From Ovis canadensis (Eukaryota; Chordata; Mammalia; Artiodactyla; Bovidae), in NCBI RefSeq assembly GCF_042477335.2, contig NC_091247.1:3122501-3186500 (forward strand): a stretch of 64,000 nt of DNA. The letters run 5' to 3'. The notes under the pieces were generated by a model. The model was given only the letters and a program-made list of their open reading frames with translations, did not search any database and was not told the DNA's origin. Of this stretch, positions 31,901 through 63,190 are shown piece after piece. Made by a program: the position numbers and the translations under genes. Numbering within the stretch: the stretch's first letter is position 1; the number at the start of each line of letters is the position of its first letter.

Positions 31901-34900
31901 CTTAGCAAAGGTCAGGGCCTGGGCTGGGCTCCCCATGGATACGTAGGCATTCCCCAGGCTCCAGCACGCCCGGCCCTCGCCCACTCTGCCAGGGAGGGAA
32001 ACTGAGTCCATATCTGCCTGCCAGGCCTGCCAGCCTGCCCACTCAGTCCCACCGTCCCGAGCCCCCAGCCTCCAGGTGGTCAGGCCCCCTACCATGGGAG
32101 GTGGTAAAGGATGGGGAGGGTGGGTGGTCCAGGTGTGGCCTCGACCACCCCCAGGTGGCCGGTGAGGCTCTCACCCTGGTGGTGACAGCGACTTCATTTC
32201 CTTGGCTCATTAATTTTTAAATTGAGGGAAAAGTAATATAACCTCAACCTCCATAAAGTGCACAATTCAGCGGCCCTATGTACATTTACAATCTACAGCC
32301 CTTGCCTCGGACTGCCTCCAAGACATCGTCACCCAAAAGAAAAACCACGGCCCCTTGTGAAGCCTCCCGGCAGGGCGGCTCTTTGGGAGACCCCTCCTCT
32401 CCTCTAGCCACGAGGGGCTCTGGCCTGTGGACTCCGAGCTTTCTTGCTGTGGCCGCTACCCCCACCCCAGACCTGCACGAGCAGCTGTGAGCTTAGGGGT
32501 CTTGTCAGTCGGTCTGTCTCTTTGCACACAGGTGTGGAAAGAGGGAGGCGGGAGGGGAGCGGGTGTTGTTCAAGGGGGCAACGGGCCAGGGACTGGGGCC
32601 CAGCCGGCCCAGCACCCAGGGGTCTCCCCAGTGCCTCCCGGTGAGCGGCGCGGCTGACCTATGGAAGAAGGCTGAGCCCTAGGCGGGTGGGTCCCCTGGT
32701 GGTCAGAGGCAGAGCGGGGCTCAGACCCAGACCAGCGGGCCAACAGGCTGCTGTGGTTGGCCTGGGGCCCGAGGGGGCGGTCGGAGCCCCCGAGGGCCTG
32801 CACCGCCCGCGTCCCCGCCGCACACCTGTCGGCCAGCTCCTGGGCGATGAGCAGGTGCCGGAGGTGGTACTCCGCCGCGCGCTCGTAGTCCTGCAGCAGC
32901 GTGTATGTGTTGCCCAGGCTGTAGCAGGCCTGCGCCTCCACCGCCTGGTCCTTGAGCTGCCGGGACAGCTGCAGCGTCTTCCTGGGGAGGGGGGGCGGCG
33001 TGGGGCAGCAGGGGGTCACCCAGGAAGGGAGGAGGGTTTCAGGATTCCCCTCCGCCGGGGGCCAGCGCATTGCTTGCGCTCCCCAAGCCCCCTTCCAAGG
33101 GGTAGACAGGGATGCGGGGGTCGTGGATCCAGCCCCAGGATCCCACGGGGGCCTCTCTGGGCTCTACCAGTTGCCCCTCTGGGGCAACACAGAGCACTGC
33201 CCCCCTCAACCCATGGCCCCAGGGAGGTCAGGCAGGCAGGCCTTGTGGCGGGGGCTGGGTGGGGGGGGGGGTGCCTCCCTGGCCTGGTGTCCAGGCGCCC
33301 TCGCCCACGCCCTCCTAGGGCCCACCGGCTGGGCAGGCAGGCCTTGACGGGGGCCAGGCGGGCAGGCCCTGGGAGAGGCCAGGCGGGTAGGCCCCGGGGG
33401 GGGCACTGAGTGGGCAGGCCTTGGGAGGAACAGGTGGGCAGGCCTTGTGGTGGGGGGTGGGGAGTGGGACGCCTCCCTGGTCTGCTGTCCAGGCGCCCTT
33501 GCCCAGCCCACCCTCTCCCTGGCCGGGCAGTGGGGGGCTGCCTACTTGTAGTACTCGGCGGCCACGTCAAAGCGCCCCAGGAATATGTGGGCGTTGCCCA
33601 GGTTGCTGTAGGCTCTCCTCTCCGCTGCTTTGTCTCCAAATTCCTTAGCGATGGCCAGGCGCTGAGGACACAGACGCAAGGCCTGAGGTGGTCACGGGGC
33701 AACCCAGGACCTGCTACCGGTGGCAGGCGCTGCCCCCCTACCCAGCATAGCCAGCCCAACATCCGCGTGCCCAGGGTGCAACCCAGGAGCCCAGACACCC
33801 AGCCCAGACGAAGCAAGGGGGCTGGGGGCAGCCCCGCCGTTCCGCTCACCTCCTTGTGGAAGGTCGTGGCCTCCGTGAAGCTCCCCAGCAGGTAGTGGGT
33901 GTTGCCCAGGTTGCCGTAGGCCCTGCCCTGGGCCGCCCGGTCACCCAGCTCCTTCACCAGGGACAGGTTCCTCCTGGACGCCAAGTGCGTGTGAGCCATA
34001 TCCCCGCCAGCAACGCCCTGCCGCCCGTCTAGGCTAGAGGATGCTGAGCCCGTGGCCCCCGGGGGTCATGCCCCCTAATGGGAGCGTCTCAGTGCTGAGC
34101 TCGAGGACTCTGGTTTTCGGGCGCCAAGGAGGCCAGGGGTGGGTGCTGTGGGGAGGGGAGCCACCCGGGGCCCCGCCCGTTCTGCTTACTCGTAGAACTC
34201 GGAAGCCCGGCGCAGTGTCTCGCGGACAGCAGGTGGCAGGTGCCCCGGGTCCTGTGCAGCGCTCCAGGACAGCTGCTTGCCCTTGGCGTGGTACACGTTG
34301 CCAATGTTGTACAGAGCCCTCGCCTCCCCGACCTGGGGGTGACACCGAGACCGGGGCTGCCTCCAAAGCCGCAGTCCCAAGGAGCCGGGCGCCCAGACCC
34401 TGCGCGCAGAGCTGGTATTCCCACGGCCTGGTTTGTGGTCCTCCCTGCCCCTGGGGCTACGAGCGCAAGGGCATCCCCTTGTCCAAACACTAAGGCAGGG
34501 GTCATAAGGAGGGGTCTGTCCCTCCTGGATCACCCCTCTAACACCCCGGGTAAGGACTCCAGCTCTGCCACCTCCAAGGGGGACCGGGCCAAGTCGGTGC
34601 CCTCTCCGCAGTGGAGCCCTCCCGAGGCAGTGACGTCATCCGTACAGAGGCAGGGACGCTGACCCCACAAGGTCACCGGGAGGACACTGAGCAGCCATCA
34701 GGGGCTCAGCAGAGCCTCTCTGCCCAGGCTTCCTCCCAGAGCCACCTCCACCCCCGCCGCCCCCTGGCCCAGGAGCGATGGGGACTATCGCTGGACTCAG
34801 CGGGGAGGTCGGTGAGAGGGGAGCAGACAGGGAAAACGGGGGCCCAGGACTCAGCCCCACGGCCTCCACGTGAGCCAGAAGCGCCCTTGTTTCTGAACAG

Positions 34901-37900
34901 GGACCATCCCCCATCTTCCTCCCAGCCGGGGCGCCTGGGGCCCTGGGTGGTATCCTCTGGGGCCCAGTCCCAGCTGGGGCGCCCAGCCAGTGCTGCCTGC
35001 CCACCTTGTCCCCCTGTTCCTGGGCGATGTCCAGGTGCCGCTGGCAGCAGACGACGGCCTCATCAAAGCGGCCCAGCACCTTAAGCGTGTTGCCCAGGTT
35101 CCCACTGGCCTTGGCCTCCCCCATGCGGTCACCGATGGTCCTGGAGGGCAGAAAGGAGTGAGGGGCCGAACTCAGGACTGAGCCCAGCATAGACCCAGGT
35201 GAGGGCCTCTGAGGACCAGGGGCGCCCATAGTCCCTGGGATGGTGCTGGGCGGGGGTCCCCAGGCGGGTGGGCCCAGCCCAGGATCGCCCGTCAGCCAGG
35301 TCAGGTCTCGGGGAGGCTCTGGTGAAGCCCAGTTTCAAGGCTGGGAACGCCAGGGAGCACAGCTCAGGGCTGGAGGGGGAGGCCTGTGGCCAAGGTGCTC
35401 AGAACGGAGAAGCCCGGCCCTGCCTGGGAGGTCTGGGGACTGGGGTTGGGAGTGGACAGGGAGGGGCAGCAGGCGAGGGGAAGCTCTGGAGACCAGAGGA
35501 GACTGGAGACCTTGGGAAAGGGGGGCTTGTGGGAGGGCGGGGGTGGGGCAAGGGACTGAATGGGCGGGGGTCCGCGGTGGAGCGGGGCGGGGTGTGGCCG
35601 GGGGCTGAATGGGTGGGGGTTCGCGGGGGCGCGGGGCGAGGGCGGGGCCTGAGTGGGCGGGGCAGGCCGCTCGGGGTGGGCAGGGGGCAGGACCAGGGGC
35701 TGAATGGGCGGGGTCCGCGGTGGAGCGGGCGGGGGCGGGGCCTGAGTGGGCGGGGCAGGCTGCTCGGCGCGGGCCGGGGGCGGGGCGGGGGCTGAATGGG
35801 CGGGGTCCGCGGTGGCGCGGGGCGGGCCCCGGGGCAGGCCGCTCGGCGCGGGGCGGGCGGGGTCGGGCCGCTCACCGGGCCAGCAGCAGATCGTGCTTGT
35901 GGTACTCCAGCGCCCGCGCGTACTCCTTCAGGTAGAAATAGGCGTTGCCCAGCTGGCTGTAGATGGCACTCAGCGTCTTCAGGTCCTCGGTGCCCACCTG
36001 CACGGCGGCCTCAAAGAAGGCCACGCCCGCCTTGAAGTCGCCCGCCTTGCACAGCCGCTCACCCTCCAGGGCCAGCTCTAGGCACGAGGCCTCCATCCTG
36101 GGCAGAGAGGACGGGTCAGGGGTCTCAGCGGCCCGGTAACACCATCAGGCCTGGGGCCCTGGCTCCTCCTCGCCACCGCGGGCCCCCCCCCCCGGACGGC
36201 TGGGGCCCGGCTCCCTTTGGATGAACGAACAGAGGCAGCTCTGAGTTGGGCGGCGAGCCTACCCCCCCAGGCCGGCACGCTGTGTGGCTCACTGTGCCAG
36301 AGCCTCACTGTCTGTCCCCACCTGCCCCCGCCACCAAGCCCAGGACCCCAACTGCCGGGCGACCGCATGAGCACAGCTGCAGCCACCCCTGCAACTGGAG
36401 GACACAGCCTCCGGCCCGGCTCCTGGCTGCTGGGCAGAGGGGCTGCCCCTGGGCCAGGCGCCGCCCGCCACCCTCCAGAGGGGCCACAGCGGCCTGGGGC
36501 GGGCCCGATGCCCGCTGAGGACAGGAGGCTCATGGGGTCACGAGACAGTCGGGGCCACATTGGTGAAAGCCGATACCAGCCCCTTCCCTGTCCTGTGTCC
36601 TAGAGTGGTGGGGCCCAACCTCCAAGCTCTTGAACCTCCTAACCTCTGGGGGCAAGGCTGCATCTGAGCCGATGTCCTGCCCTGGAGCCAGAGGGGGACA
36701 GGAGGGTGGCAGGCACAGAAGGAGTCTTGGCGGGGGCCTAAAGAGAGGGCGGGGGCTCCTGCCACCCCACCCCACTGAGACAGCCCGCAAAAGTGCGCCC
36801 CGGAAAGGTGGGAGGCGGCTCAAGACCCCGTCCGCATCCCCTTACTCCCACTGCCTTCACGTGTCACCAGAGCTCGTGGAAGAGTAACTTAAAGTGTGCT
36901 CGCCAAACGGCCCGCTGCACCCCCGAACTCATTCCCACCTTGTTAGGACTGAGCAACGCCAGGAGTTACCGGGGAGTCAACGTATTTCCCTAAGAAACAG
37001 GCAACGTTTTCTAGGTCAGTGCTTCTCAACCGCCCTATCCAAAGGCCCCTCTGAGACAGATCACAGTGTCCATTCGTGCTGCCCCTGAGTCGTTGAGAAA
37101 ACCAGGTGACACCTCGAGAACAGGCCGGGACGCAGCTGCGAACCCCCAGAGAAGCTGAGCCCTGTGCCCTGCACCCCACAGGCTCAAGGCATTCCCCGGG
37201 ACCCCCCCACGTCGGGGTCACTGATCCTCTCCTCCTGGAGGGTGCAGGGCCTGCGCCTGGGGACCCAGCCCTCTCCCAGCCTCCCCGAGACTCAACCAGA
37301 GGCCCGCAGCCTCTGAGAGCCGGAGGTCAGGGACCCGGCCTTGAGACTCGGCCGTCAGACCTGTCAGCGGGACCGCTGACAACACACCCGCCTCGCCGAG
37401 CACCCTGCCCTCCAGACGCCACATCACTGCCCACGGGCAGCAGTACCCCAACCGCCAGGGCCATGCATGGGGCTCCTTAATTAAGGCCTGCTTGTCCCTG
37501 CCCAGCTGCTTGCCACATGGCCAGCTGCCCTCTCCTTCCCGGGGACTCAGGGTCTAAAACGTGGGCGTTTCCGGAGCCCCACGGGCACTGACCCTGACCT
37601 GATCGCAGGAGCCGCCCCCTCCCTGCCCAGACACACGGCAGCAGTAGCTCAGAGGTTTCTGGAGCGGGCAGGGCCCTGGACCTAGACGTCAAGGGCACAG
37701 GGGTGCGATGCCAGGGTGTGTGGCCGTCTCCGGGAGTGCCAATGGGGGGAGGCCTCCTCCTGGGGGGGGCGCCAGGCAGGGGGGTCCCGGGAACCCCACC
37801 CCCGCCCCTGCAGGTTGCCCACCCACCCGCCTGCCCGCCACACCTCTTCCCCCGCAGGTCTCGCATCTTCTGCACATACAGCCACAGCTCCAGGCCCACA

Positions 37901-40900
37901 GGCAGCAGCAGCGGGCGCGGGCGCGGGGCGCCGTACACCACCTTGCACACGGCCTTTTCGGCCAAGCTCAGGGCCGCGGGTGGGCCCTCGGGGACAGCAG
38001 CCGGCATGCCGGGGGGGGCTCTGACCTCCTCCCCGGCCAGCTGGTCCTGGCTGTGTGCCGGCCGCGGGGTCCCGTGCCCCCGCCCCCCACCCTCGCCCCC
38101 GGGGCAGCGGGCTCCTACAGACCCCCCAGGTCTCTGGCAGGTTCTCCACAGCCTCCCAGGGCCTGTGGCGGATCAGAGGATCAAGGGCGGCTCAGAGCTG
38201 GGATCAGCACCGTCAGCAGGGCGGGCGGGCAGGAGCCCCAGGGGAGCCTGTCCACATGCTCCCCTCAGGGGCTGGCACACAGCCAGCAGGGGGAGCACAG
38301 CACCAGCACCCCCCGCCCCCAGACTCTTACTGCCCCCCAGCCCTGTGGCGGTTCGGGGCCAGAACCCGGCCACACAGCACAAAGGAGCCTGGAGCACCTG
38401 GTCGGTTTGTGGGAGCAGCGAGGACCCAGTGCAAGTGGCCCCCCACCCCCACCCCCAGAGCTGGGATGGACAGGGTCTTCACCTGGCCCTGCCCCGTCCT
38501 CCTGGACCCCTGCCGTGTCCGCCCCTGCGCCCAGCCTGGCCTGCAGCAGGGTCAACGGGGGCACAGGGTCCAAGTCACCCTGTTAGTCCCCTGAGCCTCC
38601 GGGACGCTGCTGGGTGACCAGTGCCTGACCATCGAGTGAGCTCCAGGCCTCGAGTGTCACCTGGGGGCAGGGCCTGGAGGAACCCAGGGCTGGGGCCTTG
38701 AGATGAGCAGACACCCTCCAGCCACCCCAGCGCCTTTCCTGAAACCCGCCAGCCCCTGGGCCACCTTCACAGCCCGCTCCCAGCTCCTCCAGCGCTGTGG
38801 CTGATGAGGAGGCTAGAGTGACCCTCTCTGGGCAAAGGGCAGAGCCTCTGGAGGAGCAGAGGTGGTGGGGGTGCTCAGTGCTGAAGCCCAGCCCCGGGGC
38901 TCGGTCTGGCAGAGCAGCGGGGAGAAGCCCAAGGCCCCTCGGGGCACCTCAGTGACCCACCCCTGCTGGGCGCTCTGTCCGCCCACCGCCCCCACGGCCC
39001 CGTGGGCAGCCCCTCCTGCCAGGTCGCTCGCCTGTCTCAATCACGGGCCTCGGCCAGGGAGGAGGCCCAGCGAGGCTGCAGCAGGAACCCGGGACAGGGA
39101 GGGAGAGGCTCATGGGTAGTGAGAGCCAGGGTGGGCCCTGACCCCCAAGACCACCTGGGTCTGAGCAGAGACAGGATGGCGGGGGGGCGGTGGGAGGCCT
39201 GGGGCAAAGCCGCCCGGGATACTGATCCAGGCCAGCATCAGCTTACCAGGGTCGGCAGACGCTGCTGCTCTGGCCGGGGCAGGGGTGTCTGGGAGGGCAC
39301 TGGGTGGGCAGATCAAGGGTGTGAGGATGAGGACCGAGGCCAGCCGCACCCACATCCACCACCGGGCCCTGCTTCTCAGGGGGTCCAGGACAGGGCACCC
39401 TCCTCCAGTCCCTGAGGCCTCTGTCCACCCCCGGGACGGCTCAGCTGAGGGGCAGGACAGGGCCTGGACCATCTCCTCCTTGCCCAGCTCCTGCCAATAA
39501 ACTGAACCCCCAGACTCTGCACCCTCATGTCAACCCCAGGTCCTTCCTCCGCCTCCCGGGGCAGCAGCCCCCCAACACCAGCACTGCAGGCCATCCTCTC
39601 CCCTCCCCCGCGAGACGGCCCCGCCTGGCCAGGCCCACTTCCTCGCTCAGTGAAGGTTCTGGAAGTCTGATCTCCACACCACCTCCACAGGCCTGGAGGA
39701 ATCTGTCGGAGCCGTGTCCACTGGGGACGCGCTAGAGCTGTGGCACCCCGAGGCCACCGCTTCAGTATTGGCCTGTCGAGCCGGCCTGCCTGTCCCTGTC
39801 CACTGCCCAGGACACCACGCTGCAGGACGGCAGGGCCCCCAGCAGGCCTGTCCACCCAGAGGCCGCTGGGGCACGAGACAGGGGCTCCCTGGGGCTCTGG
39901 GCCAGACTGGCCAGGGCTTTTAGGGCCCAGGACTGCGGTCTCAGCTCCCCCTTCACCAGCCTCACCCCTCAAACCCAGAGAGGGGCGTACACCTGGGATT
40001 TGCCACGTGGGCTAAACGGGTGCCTAACTGTTAACCAACAGTCCCCTACAGCCTAGGGCGAGACTGGGCCCACAGCCTCAGAGGCCTCAGGGACCACACT
40101 GCCTGCTCCAGCAGGGCCCAGTCCACCCGTGAGATTGTGAAGTCCGCTCTCCAGCACCAGCACGGCCCGGAACACCTCTCCTTCAAAGTGGTTGACCAGG
40201 GTCAGCCTTCCCAGCAGCCAGACCACAGTGGCCGGGAGGCAGGGCACTGTCTGCCAAGCTCCCGCCACCTGCCCACTGGCTCACCAGTTAATGAAGTGCT
40301 TATTGACCGCCCAGCGGCCGACCTGACTGCTCTGGTCACCAAGTCACCCCTGGTACCCCTCCCACCCGTCCTCAGCGTCCGAGAGTAGCCGTCAGCCCTG
40401 GCCCCTACTGCCCTGCCCTCTGCCCACACAGGCCCCCACCTGCCTGTCTCCCCAGACGGCCCAGTGTCCCCTGGGCACCATCGCAGAGGCTCACCGGCGG
40501 GGGGCTGGGTCCCCATCGACCCCTCTCTGCTAAAGGCAGTCAGTCCTGTCCAAGGCTGTCACCCACACTCTGGGTGCCTGGGCAGCCGCCCCAGGGCCCC
40601 CACGTGACCCCTTCCTGCCGTCCCCAGAGTGTAGCCACACTGACTCCCCTTTAGTGTTGGGGATGCTCAGAACAGCAGGGACAGGCGGCCTGGTGGAGGC
40701 AGCAAGCACTGAAGGGGAGACGCGTGTCTGCCACCAGCTTCAGAAAGCGCCTGAGGGTCACACGTCCAGGGAGCCCAGTGGCATGGCATCCCCATCCGGG
40801 AACCTGCTGGTGGGGGCACCTCTAATGAGCCCCTTACCCAAGTCTCCTCTCCCAGCCCCTGCCAGGAGCACTCAGCTGCTGGCCTCACAGAAGGCAGGAG

Positions 40901-43149
40901 TTCAGAAGAGGACGGCCCACGGCTCCCCCACTGTGGGGGCTTCTTGGCTACCTGCCCATTCCCCCGGGCCCTCCGCCCCACACCTCTGCCCCAGCGAAAC
41001 AGGCCCAGGGGCAGTGCACCAGGGTTCTCAGTGTTAATCGCTCCGGTGAGACCCCACCCACTTCTGCCTACGTGACCTGGTCCCCTCTCCAGGGCCCCTG
41101 CGGGACATGGTGGGCTCGTGGACACACTCACGCTCAGTCCCTTCTCAGTGCCAGTGCGAAGCCCAAATGCAGGACCCACTTTGTAAGAACCGGACTCATC
41201 TCCCCAGGCAGGAATGTTGGTATGGGAAGGGGAGCCACCAGGTTGCAGGGGCCAGGGGGCAGGGACAAGGCAGAGGAGACCTGACCTGGCCCCAGGGAGC
41301 CCCCCACACGCTGGGGTTTCTGGGACAGCCACCCGTGAAGTGCTCAGACCCAGTGGCTCCTGTCTGTGGGGCATCCAGGTGCCGGGCTGAGGGCAGCCCT
41401 GGGCTCCCACACCACAGCGGGGCTCCCTGGACACTCAGGCTCCAAGGGGACAGCTTTATGGCGGCCTCTGGAAGCTAGTTCCGAGCAGAAAGGACCCTGC
41501 GCATACCCAGCCACGCTCAGGTCCGACCCCCATCCCCATGGGCCTCCTCACAGGCCCTGAAAGCAGGCTCCTGCCCATGAGCTCGGAATCTCTGCCAGGT
41601 ATACCCCCCAACCTCTGCCAGGTATGCCCCCCCTCAGCCTGCAAGAAGTCCAGGCAGGACCCGGGGCCTCTTGGGGTTCGCTTTGAGCTCTGCTGCCCTG
41701 CCCACAGACGGCTCCCCGAGGCCATGGTCCTTGTGCTTGTACCCACCCACACATCAGGCTCCCGGGTCAAGCCTAGTGGGGAGGCTAGCACAACGCGGAC
41801 CACACGCTCCACCGCGCAGGGTTTCCCAAGGCTAAAGTGCCCAGGGGCCCCCTCCACCCGCAGCTCCCCTGCACACACACCCACAGCCAGATCAACGCCT
41901 GCCATTCTTCCAGAACGTGGCCTCCACCCTGGGCAGACGAGGCCCGCAGAGGGCCCCATTCCCACAGGGGCAGGGGGTTGGGGGGTTTGCCGTGCAGGAG
42001 TCCTCAAGGACAGGCCTCTGGGGTCAGCTGCCAGTAAACCCACTGGCACGCTCCTCCCCCTGCGTGGGGCCCGGGAGTCAGGCTGGGGGCTCAGCGCTCC
42101 ATCCCAAGACCACACAATGGGGGCTGTGTCTCCAGCCAGCAGCACAGACCAGACAGAGGTGGGAGGGGCCGCCAGGGCCTCATTCCACAGGTCAGGGTGT
42201 GGAGGGGGTGACAGAGGGGCGGTGGGGCACCCGGCAGAGGTTTGCGGCTGGGCTGGAGAATCCTTGTAGCCCATGCTAGGCCCCTTGAAGACTCAGAAGC
42301 CCCCCAGGTCTTAAGGATGGCTGGGGGAACTAGATGAGGTCACTCCAAGGCAGGGGCCTGTCCAGACCATGAGGAGCCAGGCCTGCCTCCGGGAGCCGCA
42401 GCCAGGAAGCAGGCCCTGCCCAGCACTCGTGCCGGCCCCGCTCTGCCAGACACCTGCACACGAAGGCAAGCCCTCAGAGGCCTGTGCCCTCCCCATCCCA
42501 GGCCAGGCCCAGGGCATCACCTGTAGCACGCCCTCGACCAGCAGGGAGTCACCAAGCAGGCATGCGGCCCAGGGGCAGGGCCACGCCGTCATCCCCGATG
42601 GGCACAGGGCACAGGGCCCGGACCACTGGCATCACCCGGGAACCCGCCCCAGGCAGGTGCCTTTTCAGGCAGGCACACACCCACCCAGCTGCCTGGCTCT
42701 GTAACCCCAGCCCAGCTGCAATCTGCTGAAGCAGGGGCATCTGGTGGGTGGGTGGGGAGTGATGGGCCCCACCCGTGACACACCCGTGGTCCCCTCCCCA
42801 CAAGTGCTGTGGCAGTGGGAAGGAGGTGCCAGGCTGGGGAGGGCAGTCCTGGCAGCCCCCACCACACACCTGCTGTGCTAGAGGCCAGCTGCTGGCAGGG
42901 CAGGGCTGGAGAAGGGGCCCCTCTCCCAGCCCTGGACACTGTGTCGAGAAGGGCCCATCTTACCCACCCCCTAGACGCCCCTCCCTTGCCGGTTTCCAGA
43001 GGGTGGTCAGTGGCAGGCCCAGCGCCCCCACCCTCGGACTCCCCTTCCTCCGCCCTGGGGCACCCTGACCCCGACACCCTCCTTCGGCACCCCGCGTCCC
43101 CCCACCCCCGCCGGCCGGCTGGGAGGGGCATCCCCGCCACGTTGCGCGC

Positions 43150-43181
<32 letters not shown>

Positions 43182-43333
43182 TTTGTTCCGGGCCGGCCAC
43201 TCGCGCCTCCTGCGTCCACGGCCCCCGCCGCCCGGTCCCCGCGCGTCCCCGCCGCCCGCCCAGCCCACCTGGAGTAGAGGCGCCGGGCCGGGCCGGGCAG
43301 CTCGTCGGCGGCGGGAGGCGCCGGGCCCGCCAT
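16906..43333 (-). CDS. GPSM1: GPSM1 (AGS3), TPR and GoLoco G-protein modulator
   Basis: GPSM1 binds GDP-bound Gi alpha through GoLoco motifs and acts as a GDI in receptor-independent G-protein signalling and spindle orientation. Coding exons in transcript order (minus strand): 43269-43333, 35876-36097, 35005-35140, 34190-34332, 33850-33973, 33546-33661, 32826-32981, 31877-31985, 30721-30844, 24875-24945, 24012-24191, 18626-18782, 18117-18325, 16906-17112. All borders are GT/AG, all phases agree, and the total is 2019 nt or 672 residues (human 675). The N-terminus is MAGPAPPAADELPGPARRLY. TPR repeats fill exons 2-9 (MEASCLELALEGERLCKAGD; GNLGNTHYLLG). Four GoLoco motifs end in DDQR/DEQR: EECFFDLLSKFQSSRMDDQR, EEFFDLIASSQSRRLDDQR, DEFFNMLIKCQSSRIDDQR, DEDFFSLIQ..MDEQR. 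Met507 (18708-18710) starts a 166-residue tail, the reported length of the heart isoform AGS3-SHORT. Confidence 0.96.
19720..19815 (+). repeat. MIR SINE fragment
   Basis: GGGGGCCTTGGGCAAGCCCA, then CTGGCCTCAGTTTACTCTGT resembles the MIR core in forward orientation, well diverged. Confidence 0.6.
21384..21690. repeat. CA/CT microsatellite with a 64-bp higher-order unit
   Basis: A block of CACACA runs, CTCTCTCT and the unique phrase CCGTAAACACTCAGAAATGG recurs with a 64-base spacing (CCGT at 21537 and 21601), with about four units in all; the first and last are diverged. It lies inside a GPSM1 intron. The open frames through it are artefacts. Confidence 0.9.
27160..27450 (+). repeat. Ancient interspersed repeat, family uncertain
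   Basis: The phrase AGATTGAAAGTTTGGGTCCC, then CAGATTTCATATGCTGAAGC resembles the start of a common old mammalian repeat, possibly an MaLR-type LTR. It is heavily diverged and I cannot fix its family or ends by eye. Confidence 0.3.
27675..27760 (-). repeat. MIR SINE fragment
   Basis: AGCGTTTACTGAGCGCCTAC, then TGTGTGAGGC is close to the MIR 3' phrase (ATTTATTGAGCGCTTACTATG) in reverse orientation. Confidence 0.65.
30845..31876 (-). other. GPSM1 intron between exons 8 and 9
   Basis: A 1.0-kb intron with no recognised repeat or coding sequence. Confidence 0.5.
32200..32305. repeat. Probable old L1-type fragment in a GPSM1 intron
   Basis: An AT-richer island in GC-rich surroundings reads TAATTTTTAAATTGAGGGAA ... 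AAAGTGCACAATTCAGCGGC ... TGTACATTTACAATC. This resembles a piece of an old L1 3' region commonly seen in placental genomes. The assignment is from memory. Confidence 0.35.
33231..33525. repeat. Tandem ~200-bp duplication in a GPSM1 intron
   Basis: CAGGCCTTGTGG recurs at 33237 and 33439, and the following GCCTCCCTGG...TCCAGGCGCCCT recurs at 33273 and 33471, so a ~200-base block is duplicated. Shorter GGGCAGGC units lie between the copies. The whole array sits between GPSM1 exons 6 and 7. Confidence 0.75.
34333..35004 (-). other. GPSM1 intron between exons 3 and 4
   Basis: A 672-bp intron with no recognised feature. Confidence 0.5.
35530..35872. repeat. GC-box minisatellite beside GPSM1 exon 2
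   Basis: Phrases CTGAATGGGCGGGG and CCTGAGTGGGCGGGGCAGGC recur: CTGAATGGG at 35556, 35604, 35700 and 35792, and CCTGAG at 35648 and 35741. Spacing is about 48 or 92-96 bases. Units contain GC boxes. The array ends within a few bases of the exon 2 splice donor (35874-35875 on the minus strand). Confidence 0.85.
36098..37843 (-). other. GPSM1 intron 1, proximal part
   Basis: No repeat I can name and no exon. It separates exon 2 from the candidate alternative first exon at 37844-38007. Confidence 0.5.
37844..38007 (-). CDS. Candidate alternative first coding exon of GPSM1
   Basis: On the minus strand, an ATG at 38005-38007 opens 54 codons plus two bases, then a GT donor (AAGAG|GTGTGG, 37842-37843). 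Joining to GPSM1 exon 2 (G|ATGGAG) completes an Arg codon and continues MEASCLEL, the same phase used by the standard exon 1. The peptide begins MPAAVPEGPPAALSLAEKAV and contains VCKVVYGAPRPRPLLLPVG and LELWLYVQKMRDLRGK. This mix of charged, aromatic and hydrophobic residues is unlike the Pro/Gly/Arg-rich shadow frames around it. The frame also stays open for at least 25 codons upstream of the ATG, so it could be a longer exon. I do not recognise the peptide; it is inferred only from phase and composition. Confidence 0.45.
38008..43268 (-). other. GPSM1 intron 1, distal part
   Basis: About 5.3 kb of GC-rich DNA. A plus-strand AATAAA occurs near 39496, and a CCG trinucleotide run lies at 43149-43181 close to exon 1. 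No other coding exon or clear interspersed repeat was recognised. Confidence 0.5.
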
Positions 43334-43700
43334 GGGGCCGGGGGAGCCGAGGGCCGCGAACCCCACGCTCGCGCCGGCCCCTCGCGCCCGTCCGCGGGCC
43401 GCGGGCCGCTGTCCACCGCCCGCCCGTCGTCCGTCCGTCCGTCCTCGCGGGCGGGAGGCGCCGAGGAAGTGATGCGCGCGACGCCGCCCCTCCCGCCGTG
43501 GCCGTGATGTCACCGCCGCCCGCGGGGGAGGGGGCGCGGGCCGAGCAGCCAGTCCCTCCTGCGTTCGCTCGGGTGGGGGAGGGGAGACGGCGCCGGGGGT
43601 GGGGGCCCCCCGCGGGGCGGGCGCGGGGCGGAGCCTTCGGGGGTTCCTCTGGCACAGGCCCAGCCCGGAGGGTGCGCCCCCAACGCCCCCCGCCACGGTG
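43100..43700 (-). promoter_or_regulatory. GPSM1: GPSM1 CpG island promoter
   Basis: Dense CpG around GPSM1 exon 1 (start codon at 43331-43333, minus strand) with many GC boxes upstream. A CRE-like TGATGTCAC lies near 43505-43513, one base off the ATF/CREB consensus. No TATA box was seen. The transcription start is not resolved. Confidence 0.75.
43149..43181. repeat. CCG/CGG trinucleotide run
   Basis: About ten uninterrupted CCG units lie in GPSM1 intron 1, about 90 bases after the exon 1 donor and inside the CpG island. In the GPSM1 transcript the run reads CGG. Confidence 0.9.
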
Positions 43701-48959: not shown

Positions 48960-49985
48960 AAAAACCTTCTTCAAGAGATGGGGATACCAAACCACCTTAC
49001 CTGCCTCCTGAGAAACCTGTATGCAGGTCAAGAAGCAACAGCTAAAGCTGGACATGGAACAACAGACTGATTCCAAATTGGGGAAGGGGTACCACAAGGC
49101 TGTATATTGTCACCCTGCTTATTTAACTTCTATGCAGAGTACATCATATGAAATGCCGGGCTAGATGAAGCACAAGCTGGAATCAAGATTGCTGGGAGAA
49201 ATATCAATAACATCATATATGCAGATGATACCACTCTAATGGCAAAAAGCAAAGAGGAACTAAAGAGCCTCTTGATGAAAATGAAAGAGGAGAGTGAAAA
49301 TGTTGGCTTAAAATTCAACATTCAATAAACTAAGATCATGGCATCTGGTCCCATCACTTTATGGCAAATAGAAGGGGGAAAAAATGGAAACAGTGACAGA
49401 CTTTATTTTCTTAGGCTCTAAAATCACTGTGGACAGTGACTGCCGCCATGAAATTAAAAGATGTTTTCTCCTTGGAAGGAAAGCTATGACAAACCTAGAT
49501 AGTGTATTAAAAAACAGAGACATCACTTTGCTGACAAAGGTCCATATAGTCAAAACTATGGTTTTTCTAGTAGTGTATGGATGTGAGACATTAAAAAAGG
49601 CTGAGCACTGAAGAATAAATGCTTCTGAGCTGTGGTGTTGGAGAAGACTCTTGAGAGTCTCTTGGACAGCACGGAGATCCAACCGGCCCATCCTAAAGGA
49701 AATCAGCCCTGAATATTCATTGAAAGGACTGATGTTGCAGCTCCAATACTCTGGGCACCTGATGTGAGGAGCCAACTCATTGGAAAAGACCCTGAAGCTG
49801 GGAAAGATTGAAGGCAGGAGGAGAAGGAGGCGACAGAGGATGAGATGGTCGGATGGCATCCTTGACTCAATGGACACGAGTTTGAGTAAGCTCCGGGAGT
49901 TGGTGGTGGACAGGGAGGCCTGGCGGGCTGCGGTCCATGAGGTCACAGAGTCGGACACCACTGAGTGACTGAACAGCGACTGGGC
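48960..49985 (+). repeat. 5'-truncated BovB (RTE) LINE
   Basis: About 1.0 kb from the 3' end of the ruminant BovB retrotransposon in forward orientation. The reverse-transcriptase box IIYADDTTLMAKSKEEL is at 49212-49260, with YADD at 49218-49229. Downstream comes TGGTGTTGGAGAAGACTCTTGAGAG and the tail phrase GTCACAGAGTCGGACACCAC. The coding frame is broken by several stops and shifts, and the 5' part of the element, including the endonuclease, is absent. It is a dead copy, strikingly AT-richer than its surroundings. Confidence 0.96.
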
Positions 49986-59164: not shown

Positions 59165-61735
59165 ACTGCCCCGCCGTGCTTATGGCCCAGCTTCTTCCTG
59201 GAGAAGTAGGTCTCCGCTGACCAATGGGGGCAGCTTAGTCCCTGCTGAGAACAAAGGGTCACCCGGCTCATGTTAGGAGAAACTTCTTGTGTTGGGGCTC
59301 CTTCCACTTCCCCTCAGAGTGACCCTTTCTCTCTGCCCTCCGGAGGGGGCTGGGAGTCCGGAGGATGCTGGGAGGACGCCCGCCGCCCCAAGGACCCCAA
59401 CTGATGGGGAAGCCTGAGGGCCTGGCGGAGGGAAGTCGTTCAGAGGCCTGGGGCCAGGCCTCTGCTCGGGTGTGTGATCCTGCGGCCAGAGCGAAGGGAG
59501 GCCGGGAAGGGCTTTCATTCTCACCAAGGTCACAGGGGGATTTGCCGAGGGGGGGGGGCTCTTTGGAAATGAGGATGGAGCAGTCTGGGGGGTCCTCTCA
59601 GCTGTCCAGGCTCCAGGGGCTGTGTGCGGGACACTGTGGTCATTCCTGATGGTGTCCCCCAACCACCCGAACTTGCAGCCACATCCTAAGACCTTCCGCC
59701 CCTCCTGCATGTCGGGCACCGTGCCAAGACACACCACGGCCTGCAGCCCTCCTGGAAGGGCCTGCTGTCCTGTGCAGACCCGGGTCAGTGTCCTGGGGCC
59801 CCAGCCACTTGCAAACATCCTGAACCTATTTCAGCTTCACCAGGCGACGTCCCCAGTGGAGCGGGCCAGCCTGGGCAGGGTGGGACTCCAGGCCAGGGGC
59901 ACAGGGCCGAGCTGACCCCATGGGGCTGCCGGCTAGGGAACCTGGCTGTAGAGAGATGCCGTCTTTCTGGGCCACCAGTGTGCTTGAGGACCCCAGGGCC
60001 GGAGGCTGGATCTGGGGTCCGGGCAGCTCTGTACCTGCCCCAACCCGGTGCCAACGGCAGGGGAGGTTGAGTCGGGGCAGAGCGGGACACCAGGCAGGGT
60101 CCATCCCGGGCCACTCCCGTGCCTACTGGCAGCGCGAGCTGGGGCTGTGTCCCGGTGACCAGAGCCCCGCCCTGCGTCCTGCCCAGAGGGCAGTGCCTCC
60201 AAGCGTCCCTGGCTCCCCAGGAGGGGTCACTTAGAGAGAACCTCTAGGACGCTCTCCATTCTCCATGCCTGCCTGGAATTAGGGAGTCTGGGGGTCTTTT
60301 GATGCAGAGCCCCCAACTGTCTCAGGGACCATTCTAGAAGGAGTACCTTCAGGGCTATTGCTAACGCTGATAAATATTGTAGCCCCTCAGCCATTCCCGG
60401 ACGGACTGCTGGTGAGTGCTGGCCACTCTGCAGGGCTCTTCTGCAGGGGTGAACTCACCAGAGCTCACAATACCCAGGGCAGGGGTGGGGTCCCTGGTCG
60501 CCCAAGGTTACCCTGCTGGCTGGGGCGGAGCTGGAATGAACCAGCTCTCCTCCTGGGGGACAATGCCGAGCCCAGGGCCAGCGGACTGCAGAGCCCACGT
60601 CCTCCCCACTGTGCTGCCCTGCTGGGCTCGTCAAGCAGGTGACGGGAAGCCCGCTGGAGGTGGCCAGGTGGGGACACTCAAGCCTCCGCAGAGACCATTT
60701 CTGTGGTCAAAGGGATGTGCTGAGCCTGTGCCGGAGAGCGGGATGCCAGGCCCGCTTCCCTGGACCAGTTCGCAGAAGCCGAAATATCAGGACCAGAGTT
60801 CTCAGCCCCTCGTCCAGCTGCTGGCAACGTGCCCTGGGCTGGCTCCTTTCCTGTGCCCAGACCCTCATGCTGACCCCAACCCTGAGCTGACCCTTGAGCC
60901 CAATACCAGCATGTGGCTGAGCCCATGCCTGCCCCTGCCCAGCCCTAGCCCCTCACATCGTCCCCACTCTGGCCCAGGCTGAGCCTGACCCCAGCCCAGG
61001 CCAACTTACCACGTACAGCAGCCGCTGGCCCCGGAGCCCTAGGAGGACTGGGGTGGGCGTGCTGCCTGGGGGCCCAGCAAGAGCTGCAGGCCCAGCTCGC
61101 TATTCCTGCGTGACACGGGGTTATTATGCAGTCATGAGGTCACCCGGAATTCTCACCCTCTACTGAGGGTCAGTGCAGTGGGAAGCCCTCCCACCCCAGG
61201 CTTTTGCCAGTCCAGGGCCTGGCAGCCCACGGTGCCCACCCTGTTTCCATGACTGTCCTGAGAATTTCCAGCATGGGCCAGGGGACCAGGATAGGCCAGC
61301 ACCGGGAGCCAGGCAGCGGCCAGCTCACCTTGAGCTGGGGAGGACGCCAGGTGGCCGAGCATGAGGCTGTGGGCCCGGGGCTGCCCCGTGAAGGCACCAT
61401 CTGGGCCCAGGGCAGGCGGTGACGGAGGCTCACCGGCTCCATCTTCGCTCCCAGCCCTGCTGCCATGTCGGCCTCGGTCATGGTGATGCTGCCCGCTTGC
61501 TGGGGGAACATGATCCTGCCCCACCTCAAAGAGAGCCAGAGGCAGCGTCCCGTCTCCCTCGGGGCCCCAGGGGGTTGGGCGTTCCGGAGGGCCAGTGCCA
61601 AGTCCGGGCCGTGTTTGTGCCGACTTAGGTGCGCATGTCAGCTCGCGGGTGTTGAGGTGCCGTCAGGGAGGTGGCCACGCCTTCTTGGAGGGCAGCTGAG
61701 GTGGTGTGGGGAGCGGGGTCAAGGGCCAGGGTGCT
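59165..61735. other. Intergenic, last part before CCDC187
   Basis: No gene supported. If the CCDC187 promoter and first exons lie in the window, they are probably here, but I could not identify them. Confidence 0.4.
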
Positions 61736-61866: not shown

Positions 61867-62086
61867 TCATCCCTTTCTCCAGGGACCTAACCCCTGGTGG
61901 CTTAGATGGTAAAGTGTCTGCCCACAGTGCGGGAAACCTGGGTTCGATCCCAGGGTTGGGAATGGCAACCCACTCCAGTACTCTTGCCTGGAAAATCCCA
62001 CAGACGGATTTTCCGTTACAGTCCATGGGGTCGCAGAGAGTTGGACACGACTGAGCGAGTTCACTTCCACCTTTCATCCCTTTCTC
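61867..62086 (+). mobile_element. Bov-tA SINE with 13-bp target-site duplication
   Basis: The SINE body (61880-62073) carries CCCTGGTGGCTTAGATGGTA, TGGGTTCGATCCCAGGGTTG and GTTGGACACGACTGAGCGAG. It is flanked by identical TCATCCCTTTCTC copies at 61867-61879 and 62074-62086, a clean target-site duplication. It lies about 120 bases before the next exon. Confidence 0.93.
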
Positions 62087-62207
62087 AGTCTGAGACAGGA
62101 GAACGGAGTCCTGGAGACAGTGTGTGGGGCGGGGGACATGGAGACGGGTGGCTCCGCACCTCCACGTGTCTGCGCCTGACAGGTTCTGTCTGCCTCTCTC
62201 CCCCAAG

Positions 62208-62713
62208 GGAAGACAGGCTCTGCCCACTGGCGGCCGAAGATGACGCCAGGACGGCTGTGAGGTGGCCCGAGCCCCGCCGGCAGGCAGGTGCCCTGCAGGG
62301 ATCTCCCCCCGCGGCCTGGTCCGACTACACTGAGGAGCCTGACCGCCAGAGGCAGGCCTGCAGCATCCCCATGTGGTTGACCGACGAGGAGGCCAAGGAT
62401 GGGGACAGCTCCGTGTCGTCGGGCCGCCTCTCTGGCTCCTCGGGGGGCCACGAGTCGGGCACCCCTCCCCATAGGACTTGGACCGAGAGGGCCCCCCAGG
62501 TGCCAAGGCCACCGCGGCAGCCGAGAGAGAGCAACCCCCGGCTGGAGCAGCTGAGGGACAAGATCCGGGCCCAAGCCCAGCGGCAGGCAAGCTGCGCCTC
62601 GCTGGGCACCTCGACACCCTCCAGTGCCTCACACCTCTACAAAGCTTTCTCACCAGCACCCCGGAGGAAGGCCCGAAAGCCTTCAAACCCCCTACCAGCC
62701 CCGGCCTACCCAG
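62208..62713 (+). CDS. CCDC187: Internal exon, probably CCDC187
   Basis: A 506-base open exon between CTCTCCCCCAAG (acceptor) and CCCAG|GTCAGT (donor). It enters with two bases borrowed from the previous exon and leaves with one. The product is polar and Ser-rich (WLTDEEAKDGDSSVSSGRLS) and then carries a helical basic stretch (NPRLEQLRDKIRAQAQRQAS) and HLYKAFSPAPRRKARKPSNP. I assign CCDC187 because it is the head-to-head neighbour of GPSM1 in human and the orientation fits. Family recognition is by context, not by a known domain. Upstream exons and the start codon were not found. Confidence 0.6.
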
Positions 62714-63190
62714 GTCAGTGGGGCAGCTCTCCCCAGAGAGGGACAGGCAGGGAGGGGGAGAAACTGATGAGACTGGGCCGCCACAGGCCAGGCCCCGCCT
62801 GGGCTGGTGGCCCCCTGGGAGGCTGGGGCAGTGCGCCCCACAGCCCTGGAGGGTCTCAGAGCCTGGGAAGCTGAGTGGAGATAGAGCCCTCCCCGGGCTG
62901 CGTGCGGGCTGGGTTTAAGCACGAGGAACCATTGACTCATCCAGGACATGGAGACCACCTGGTGGAAACAACGGGGAGGGGGGGTGCAAGGCAGATATGG
63001 GGAGGCTGGAGGGTGTGTGAGGGGCGTGGACGGGAGGAAGGCCTGCAGAAGGCCCCCGAGAGGAGACTGCGCCCTCAGAGCAGGGGCTTTTGAGCGGCGG
63101 CCGAAGGAGGACCTTTCGTTGGACATTTCCTCATGGGCTCCCGGTCCGCACGATGCCCCTTCTCCTGCTGCACCAGCCTCAGGCATCCTG

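Follow-up and report, generated by a model that had tools for sequence, protein, structure and literature searches.

Comparison with described alternative first exons

Alternative first exons are common, and the feature described here is ordinary in kind. Mammalian examples of N-termini encoded in this way are MTP-B (PMC4714884) and an HMGCR variant that uses an alternative exon 1 (PMC3526503). In both cases an alternative first exon precedes the shared exons of a known gene. The candidate analyzed in this work would share this arrangement; whereas the two above variants were reported as observed transcripts, it is known from sequence alone. It lies in intron 1 of GPSM1, the gene encoding AGS3, within a 64,000-nucleotide stretch of the Ovis canadensis genome (contig NC_091247.1, positions 3,122,501 to 3,186,500), which is referred to below as the window. 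According to the analysis of codon content and splice phase, the segment 38007-37844 of the minus strand is very likely a coding exon of some kind, and probably an alternative first coding exon of GPSM1.

The standard exon 1 of GPSM1 resembles the candidate in strand, splice phase, acceptor exon and donor strength. It differs in that it lies in a strong CpG-rich block and encodes 21 residues plus a split Arg codon, whereas the candidate lies outside this block and encodes 54 residues plus the Arg. The two peptides are unlike, as compared by eye without alignment.

The paralogue GPSM2, encoding LGN, contains an exon homologous to GPSM1 exon 2 (88% identity over 73 aa). In this gene the Met codon is preceded by ..ATAG|A ATG, and the phase-2 boundary ahead of MEASCLEL appears to be shared by both genes. 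A paralogous exon in GPSM2 was considered and rejected: unlike GPSM1, this gene has no convincing counterpart of the candidate exon in the approximately 30 kb upstream of the homologous exon. The best match in this region outside the shared RMEASCLEL had an E value of 0.52 over 19 residues.

Layout and splice phase of the candidate exon

GPSM1 is encoded on the minus strand. Alignment of the human GPSM1 protein revealed exon-sized blocks from 43333 down to 16909, and the candidate is located within the 7,170 bases of intron 1. Its ATG occupies positions 38007-38005 and is followed by the rest of the 54 codons MPAAVPEGPPAALSLAEKAVCKVVYGAPRPRPLLLPVGLELWLYVQKMRDLRGK, by AG (37845-37844) and by the donor GTGTGG. 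The original prediction, a 54-codon ATG frame ending in AAGAG|GTGTGG in this intron, was thereby confirmed in its coordinates, 38007-37844 (minus).

The standard exon 1 ends in TCCAG|GTGGGC (boundary 43269/43268), and exon 2 begins at CCCAG|G ATG GAG (boundary 36097/36096). Joining of exon 2 to either first exon completes the codon AGG (Arg), after which the protein continues as MEASCLEL. Since both junctions give AGG before MEA, the introns after the candidate exon and after exon 1 are both phase 2, in agreement with the claim that the candidate restores the reading frame as exon 1 does. The N-terminal exchange, predicted as 22 residues for about 55, amounts to 21 residues plus Arg contributed by exon 1 versus 54 plus Arg contributed by the candidate. 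As was also predicted, the frame stays open upstream of the ATG; it extends to a stop at 38175-38173 and contains no further in-frame ATG. It also continues open past the donor, as far as 37477. The 593 bases ahead of 38007 contain a single ATG, which is located at 38257 and opens 14 codons. The ATG at 38007 has a G at position -3.

Codon content

In the window, 177 stop-to-stop frames reach a length of 150 codons. Because of these long frames, and because the candidate frame itself runs past its donor, an open frame alone is no evidence here. The same abundance favors the rival explanation, in which GC-rich intron DNA contains by chance an open frame ending at a GT of the right phase. Openness being uninformative in a GC-rich window, codon content was scored.

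The main model used human average amino acid frequencies with third positions tilted to approximately 86% GC, and the trinucleotides of local noncoding DNA as background; GPSM1 was not used for training. The null set was drawn from both strands right of 17200 and comprised 84,555 windows, each 54 codons long, with the known GPSM1 exons and the candidate left out. The region left of 17200 was kept outside the null since other genes are probably located there. In total, 32,502 of the 84,555 null windows were stop-free, with a mean of -24.8 bits and a standard deviation of 9.6.

The candidate exon has a codon log-likelihood of +13.4 bits over its 54 codons, which is within the range spanned by 12 known exons of this gene (1.5 to 37.6 per 54 codons). 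This value was reached by seven of the 32,502 stop-free null windows, all of them at 62293-62475 (plus), a block that itself looks coding. The last 42 codons score 17.2, equalled by three of 40,549 null windows; two of these belong to the same cluster at 62293-62475 (plus) and one to a retrotransposon-like frame at 49200 (plus). Dinucleotide-preserving shuffles of the exon never reached its score (0 of 20,000, of which 3,824 stayed open). The GC content of its three codon positions is 0.78, 0.48 and 0.87. The composition-matched scores and the shuffles place the candidate outside the noncoding distribution, which argues against a chance frame.

Sliding windows of 30 codons peak in the candidate frame at 14.7 (37977-37888). 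Between 38307 and 37498 neither of the remaining sense frames gives a positive value, each being closed or negative, and the antisense frames reach a maximum of 3.8. Across the donor the sliding windows fall to -5.2, -13.4 and -19.8, and the 54 codons past the donor score -32.6. The open stretch upstream of the ATG (38008-38172) is not coding-like overall, its cumulative score running from 0.4 to -24.2. The end of the coding signal, which resides in the last 42 codons, thus falls at the donor, whereas the ATG is less well defined.

Under three settings of the third-position tilt, 13, 7 and 9 of the 32,502 null windows equalled the candidate. With the first setting (13 windows) the clusters begin at 49152, 49372 and 62302, with the second (7 windows) at 62293 and with the third (9 windows) at 62290, all on the plus strand. 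A model trained in part on GPSM1 exons gave the candidate a higher score than any of the 22,564 null windows used with it.

Splice sites and ranking of candidates

Donors were scored with an approximate matrix. The exon 1 donor scores 2.40 bits, another at 32825 (cag|GTGTGC) 2.95, and the candidate donor 2.41. The latter is a fair and usable 5' splice site, within the range of 1.13 to 9.31 found for the 11 GPSM1 donors scored; at two further GPSM1 exon ends there was no GT in the stretch inspected.

On the sense strand of intron 1, two ATG-initiated phase-2 frames of at least 40 codons end at an equally good donor, the candidate included, and on the antisense strand there is one. The second sense frame (79 codons) speaks for a chance origin of the candidate. 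Set against this, its codon score is -42.4 bits and it holds rank 2,472 among 3,245, versus rank 16 for the candidate. The ranking combined coding and donor scores for 3,245 ATG-to-GT candidates of at least 20 codons, in any phase and on both strands right of 17200. All 15 candidates ranked higher overlap known GPSM1 exons, and the standard exon 1 itself holds rank 36. On these data we consider a chance frame unlikely.

An acceptor at 38162 scores 1.1 bits, above six of the 13 known GPSM1 acceptors, and is out of frame with exon 1. The sole in-frame acceptor above -8 bits within 38400-37881, at 38197 (-5.1 bits), would read the stop at 38175-38173. For these two reasons the candidate fits poorly as an internal exon, and it was rejected as an in-frame cassette separating exon 1 from exon 2. 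The strength of the 38162 acceptor lends some support to another possibility, namely that a 5' noncoding exon, or the untranslated start of another transcript, is spliced to about 38162 and that translation begins at 38007, so that the exon would be coding without being the first. Nothing in the data points to such an upstream exon, and an exon starting at 38162 would not keep the frame if it were included after exon 1 and before exon 2; this possibility is considered highly unlikely.

Assessment as a first exon

Several observations weigh against a role of the segment as alternative first exon with coding function. When the GC tilt was omitted and a plain human codon table was used, the score of the candidate was reached by 1,138 of 22,564 null windows, which places it near the 95th percentile only and counts in favor of a chance frame; the same table also gives low scores for several known GPSM1 exons. 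Taken by themselves, the last 30 codons stand out less, their score being reached by 39 to 95 of 50,671 windows, depending on the tilt setting. The first 12 codons, MPAAVPEGPPAA, score -3.8, so that the start is not fixed by the coding signal; the coding-like content is confined to the candidate exon with this exception and is far less clear with the plain table. The donor is of moderate strength, since 19 of the 398 GTs in intron 1, the candidate included, score as high. Neither Pfam nor PDB contains a match to the candidate peptide. TATA and CCAAT motifs are absent from 38400-37950, and the CpG observed/expected ratio of the candidate region (0.67 over 37800-38000) is far below that around exon 1 (0.86 to 1.09 over 43000-43600). 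Finally, the hydrophobic moment of GLELWLYVQKMRDLRGKR in the new N-terminus is not above chance (4,632 of 5,000 shuffles as high).

As for other promoter features, the adjoining bins have lower CpG ratios than 37800-38000, namely 0.40 and 0.47, and this local rise speaks for the exon. The bins 37800-38000 (GC 0.72, CpG observed/expected 0.67), 36000-36200 and 36800-37000 just satisfy the loose classical measure of a CpG island. GC-box hexamers occur as GGGCGG at 38318 and 38085 and as CCGCCC at 38228, 38224 and 38190. A tissue-restricted promoter would be compatible with these observations.

In the original prediction the exon was a candidate alternative first exon of GPSM1. Its coding-like character and its splice compatibility with exon 2 held in the main sequence tests, with the above exceptions. 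That it is the first exon and has a promoter of its own is the part that we only infer, from the upstream acceptors, of which the in-frame one would read a stop and the fair one is out of frame with exon 1, and from the presence upstream of just the 14-codon ATG. Transcription of the segment from an intron-1 promoter and translation from the ATG at 38007 are likewise inferred.

It was also considered that an alternative 5' exon is transcribed and serves mainly as a 5' untranslated region, the protein starting at the Met of exon 2 (MEASCLEL). Exon 2 indeed opens with an in-frame ATG, and the numbering of rat AGS3 starts at this Met. Against this stand the ATG at 38007, which is in frame upstream and has G at -3, and the coding-like codon content of the exon, and we regard a mainly untranslated exon as the least probable of the alternatives, a very remote one.

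Copy number, database matches and literature

The source genome (2.97 Gb, 42 contigs) was searched for copies. The candidate peptide and its DNA occur at a single place, and two weak protein matches elsewhere (E values of 1.2 and 6) look like chance. Since there is only one genomic place, no sign of a retrocopy or repeat is seen, and an origin as a repeat, retrocopy or segmental duplicate was rejected.

The longer frame likewise had no match in Pfam, and nothing in the window reached Rfam gathering scores. Neither the peptide nor exon 2 had a relative in bacterial/archaeal and viral contigs, sets that are free of mammals and therefore silent on conservation. A predicted isoform with the candidate exon may well be present already in RefSeq, Ensembl or UniProt listings.

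The candidate exon is not described in the passages considered from PMC9581579, PMC3842979 and PMC4528294. Nor is it described in those from two further articles, where the gene is named once each, in a list of genes near ATAC (assay for transposase-accessible chromatin) peaks (PMC12528612) and in a pathway table (PMC13053314). Literature searches with peptide strings of the exon and its junction gave no match; these searches are uninformative, because AGS3 control strings also gave none.

Predicted protein

If the exon is used as proposed, a transcript would start inside intron 1, shortly upstream of 38007, and the candidate exon would be spliced to exon 2. The 22 N-terminal residues would be replaced by 55 (54 plus Arg), and the downstream exons would be retained, with the TPR domain for partner binding and the GoLoco/GPR motifs for G-alpha binding. 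Deposited LGN (GPSM2) constructs (matches with E < 1e-45), compared as sequences only, start between 12 residues before and 2 residues after the exon 2 Met. As these constructs begin around this Met, the new tail would be expected to abut TPR1 at its beginning.

The shorter segment LSLAEKAVCKVVY is a borderline case, its hydrophobic moment being reached by 266 of 5,000 shuffles, and that of the tail together with the start of exon 2 is not above shuffles (2,762 of 5,000 as high). An amphipathic helix continuing into TPR1, or a packed helix, is not supported by these data. The new tail could affect partner choice, localisation or targeting. The TPR partners of AGS3 are of the Insc, NuMA and Frmpd1 class. 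It is tentatively suggested, as a rather doubtful possibility, that the exon belongs to an undescribed tissue-restricted GPSM1 isoform with an intron-1 promoter, whose 55-residue tail would shift the TPR partners or the membranes used by AGS3.

Features of the locus and of the window

The coordinates of the features are given in Table 1. A tandem array with a 93-base GC-rich unit (2.4 copies) is located at 35601-35826, just downstream of GPSM1 exon 2.

Table 1. Features of the GPSM1 exon 1 to exon 2 region (window coordinates)
Feature	Position	Strand	Basis
Candidate exon, proposed as alternative first coding exon of GPSM1, with 54 codons + AG	37844..38007	minus	frame, phase, codon content
5' splice donor GTGTGG after ..AAGAG of the candidate exon	37838..37843	minus	donor score
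GPSM1 exon 2, G|ATGGAG.. MEASCLEL.., first TPR, shared acceptor	35876..36097	minus	protein alignment, splice reading
Standard GPSM1 exon 1, coding part, MAGPAPPAADELPGPARRLYS + AG, in strong CpG-rich block	43269..43333	minus	protein alignment
Open in-frame stretch upstream of the candidate ATG, candidate 5' untranslated region	38008..38172	minus	codon score
Fair acceptor CCACAG|GCCC with 38162 as first exon base, not in frame with exon 1, relevant only given a noncoding exon upstream	38161..38164	minus	1.1 bits
Peptide string AEKAVCKVVYGAPRPRPLLLPVGLELWLYVQKMR of the candidate-exon protein		minus	

Elsewhere in the window, the strong coding-like block at 62293-62475 (plus) lies inside an open frame (61906-62871) and encodes SPPAAWSDYTEEPDRQRQACSIPMWLTDEEAKDGDSS.., then ..SNPRLEQLRDKIRAQAQRQAS..; it has no match in Pfam. 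It is probably an exon of a neighbouring gene, which we guess to be CCDC187. At approximately 49000-49700 (plus) a frame fragment (..NIIYADDTTLMAKSKEELKSLLMKMKEESENVGLKFNI) stands out in codon scoring; we take this frame near 49.2 kb to be reverse transcriptase-like and of retrotransposon origin. In addition, a short minus-strand block at 61425, with a GT at 61433, has a coding-like score.

Significance of the candidate exon

The analysis indicates that codon content and splice phase alone can reveal an intron-embedded coding exon. Use of the exon would give GPSM1 two N-termini under separate control, one of which would escape knock-outs, antibodies and constructs based on exon 1. A mouse line with a deletion in GPSM1 exon 2 is described in PMC4528294; such a deletion would remove both N-termini and therefore could not distinguish them. 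Should the suggested tissue-restricted isoform be real, some AGS3 functions would belong to a protein that nobody has assayed.

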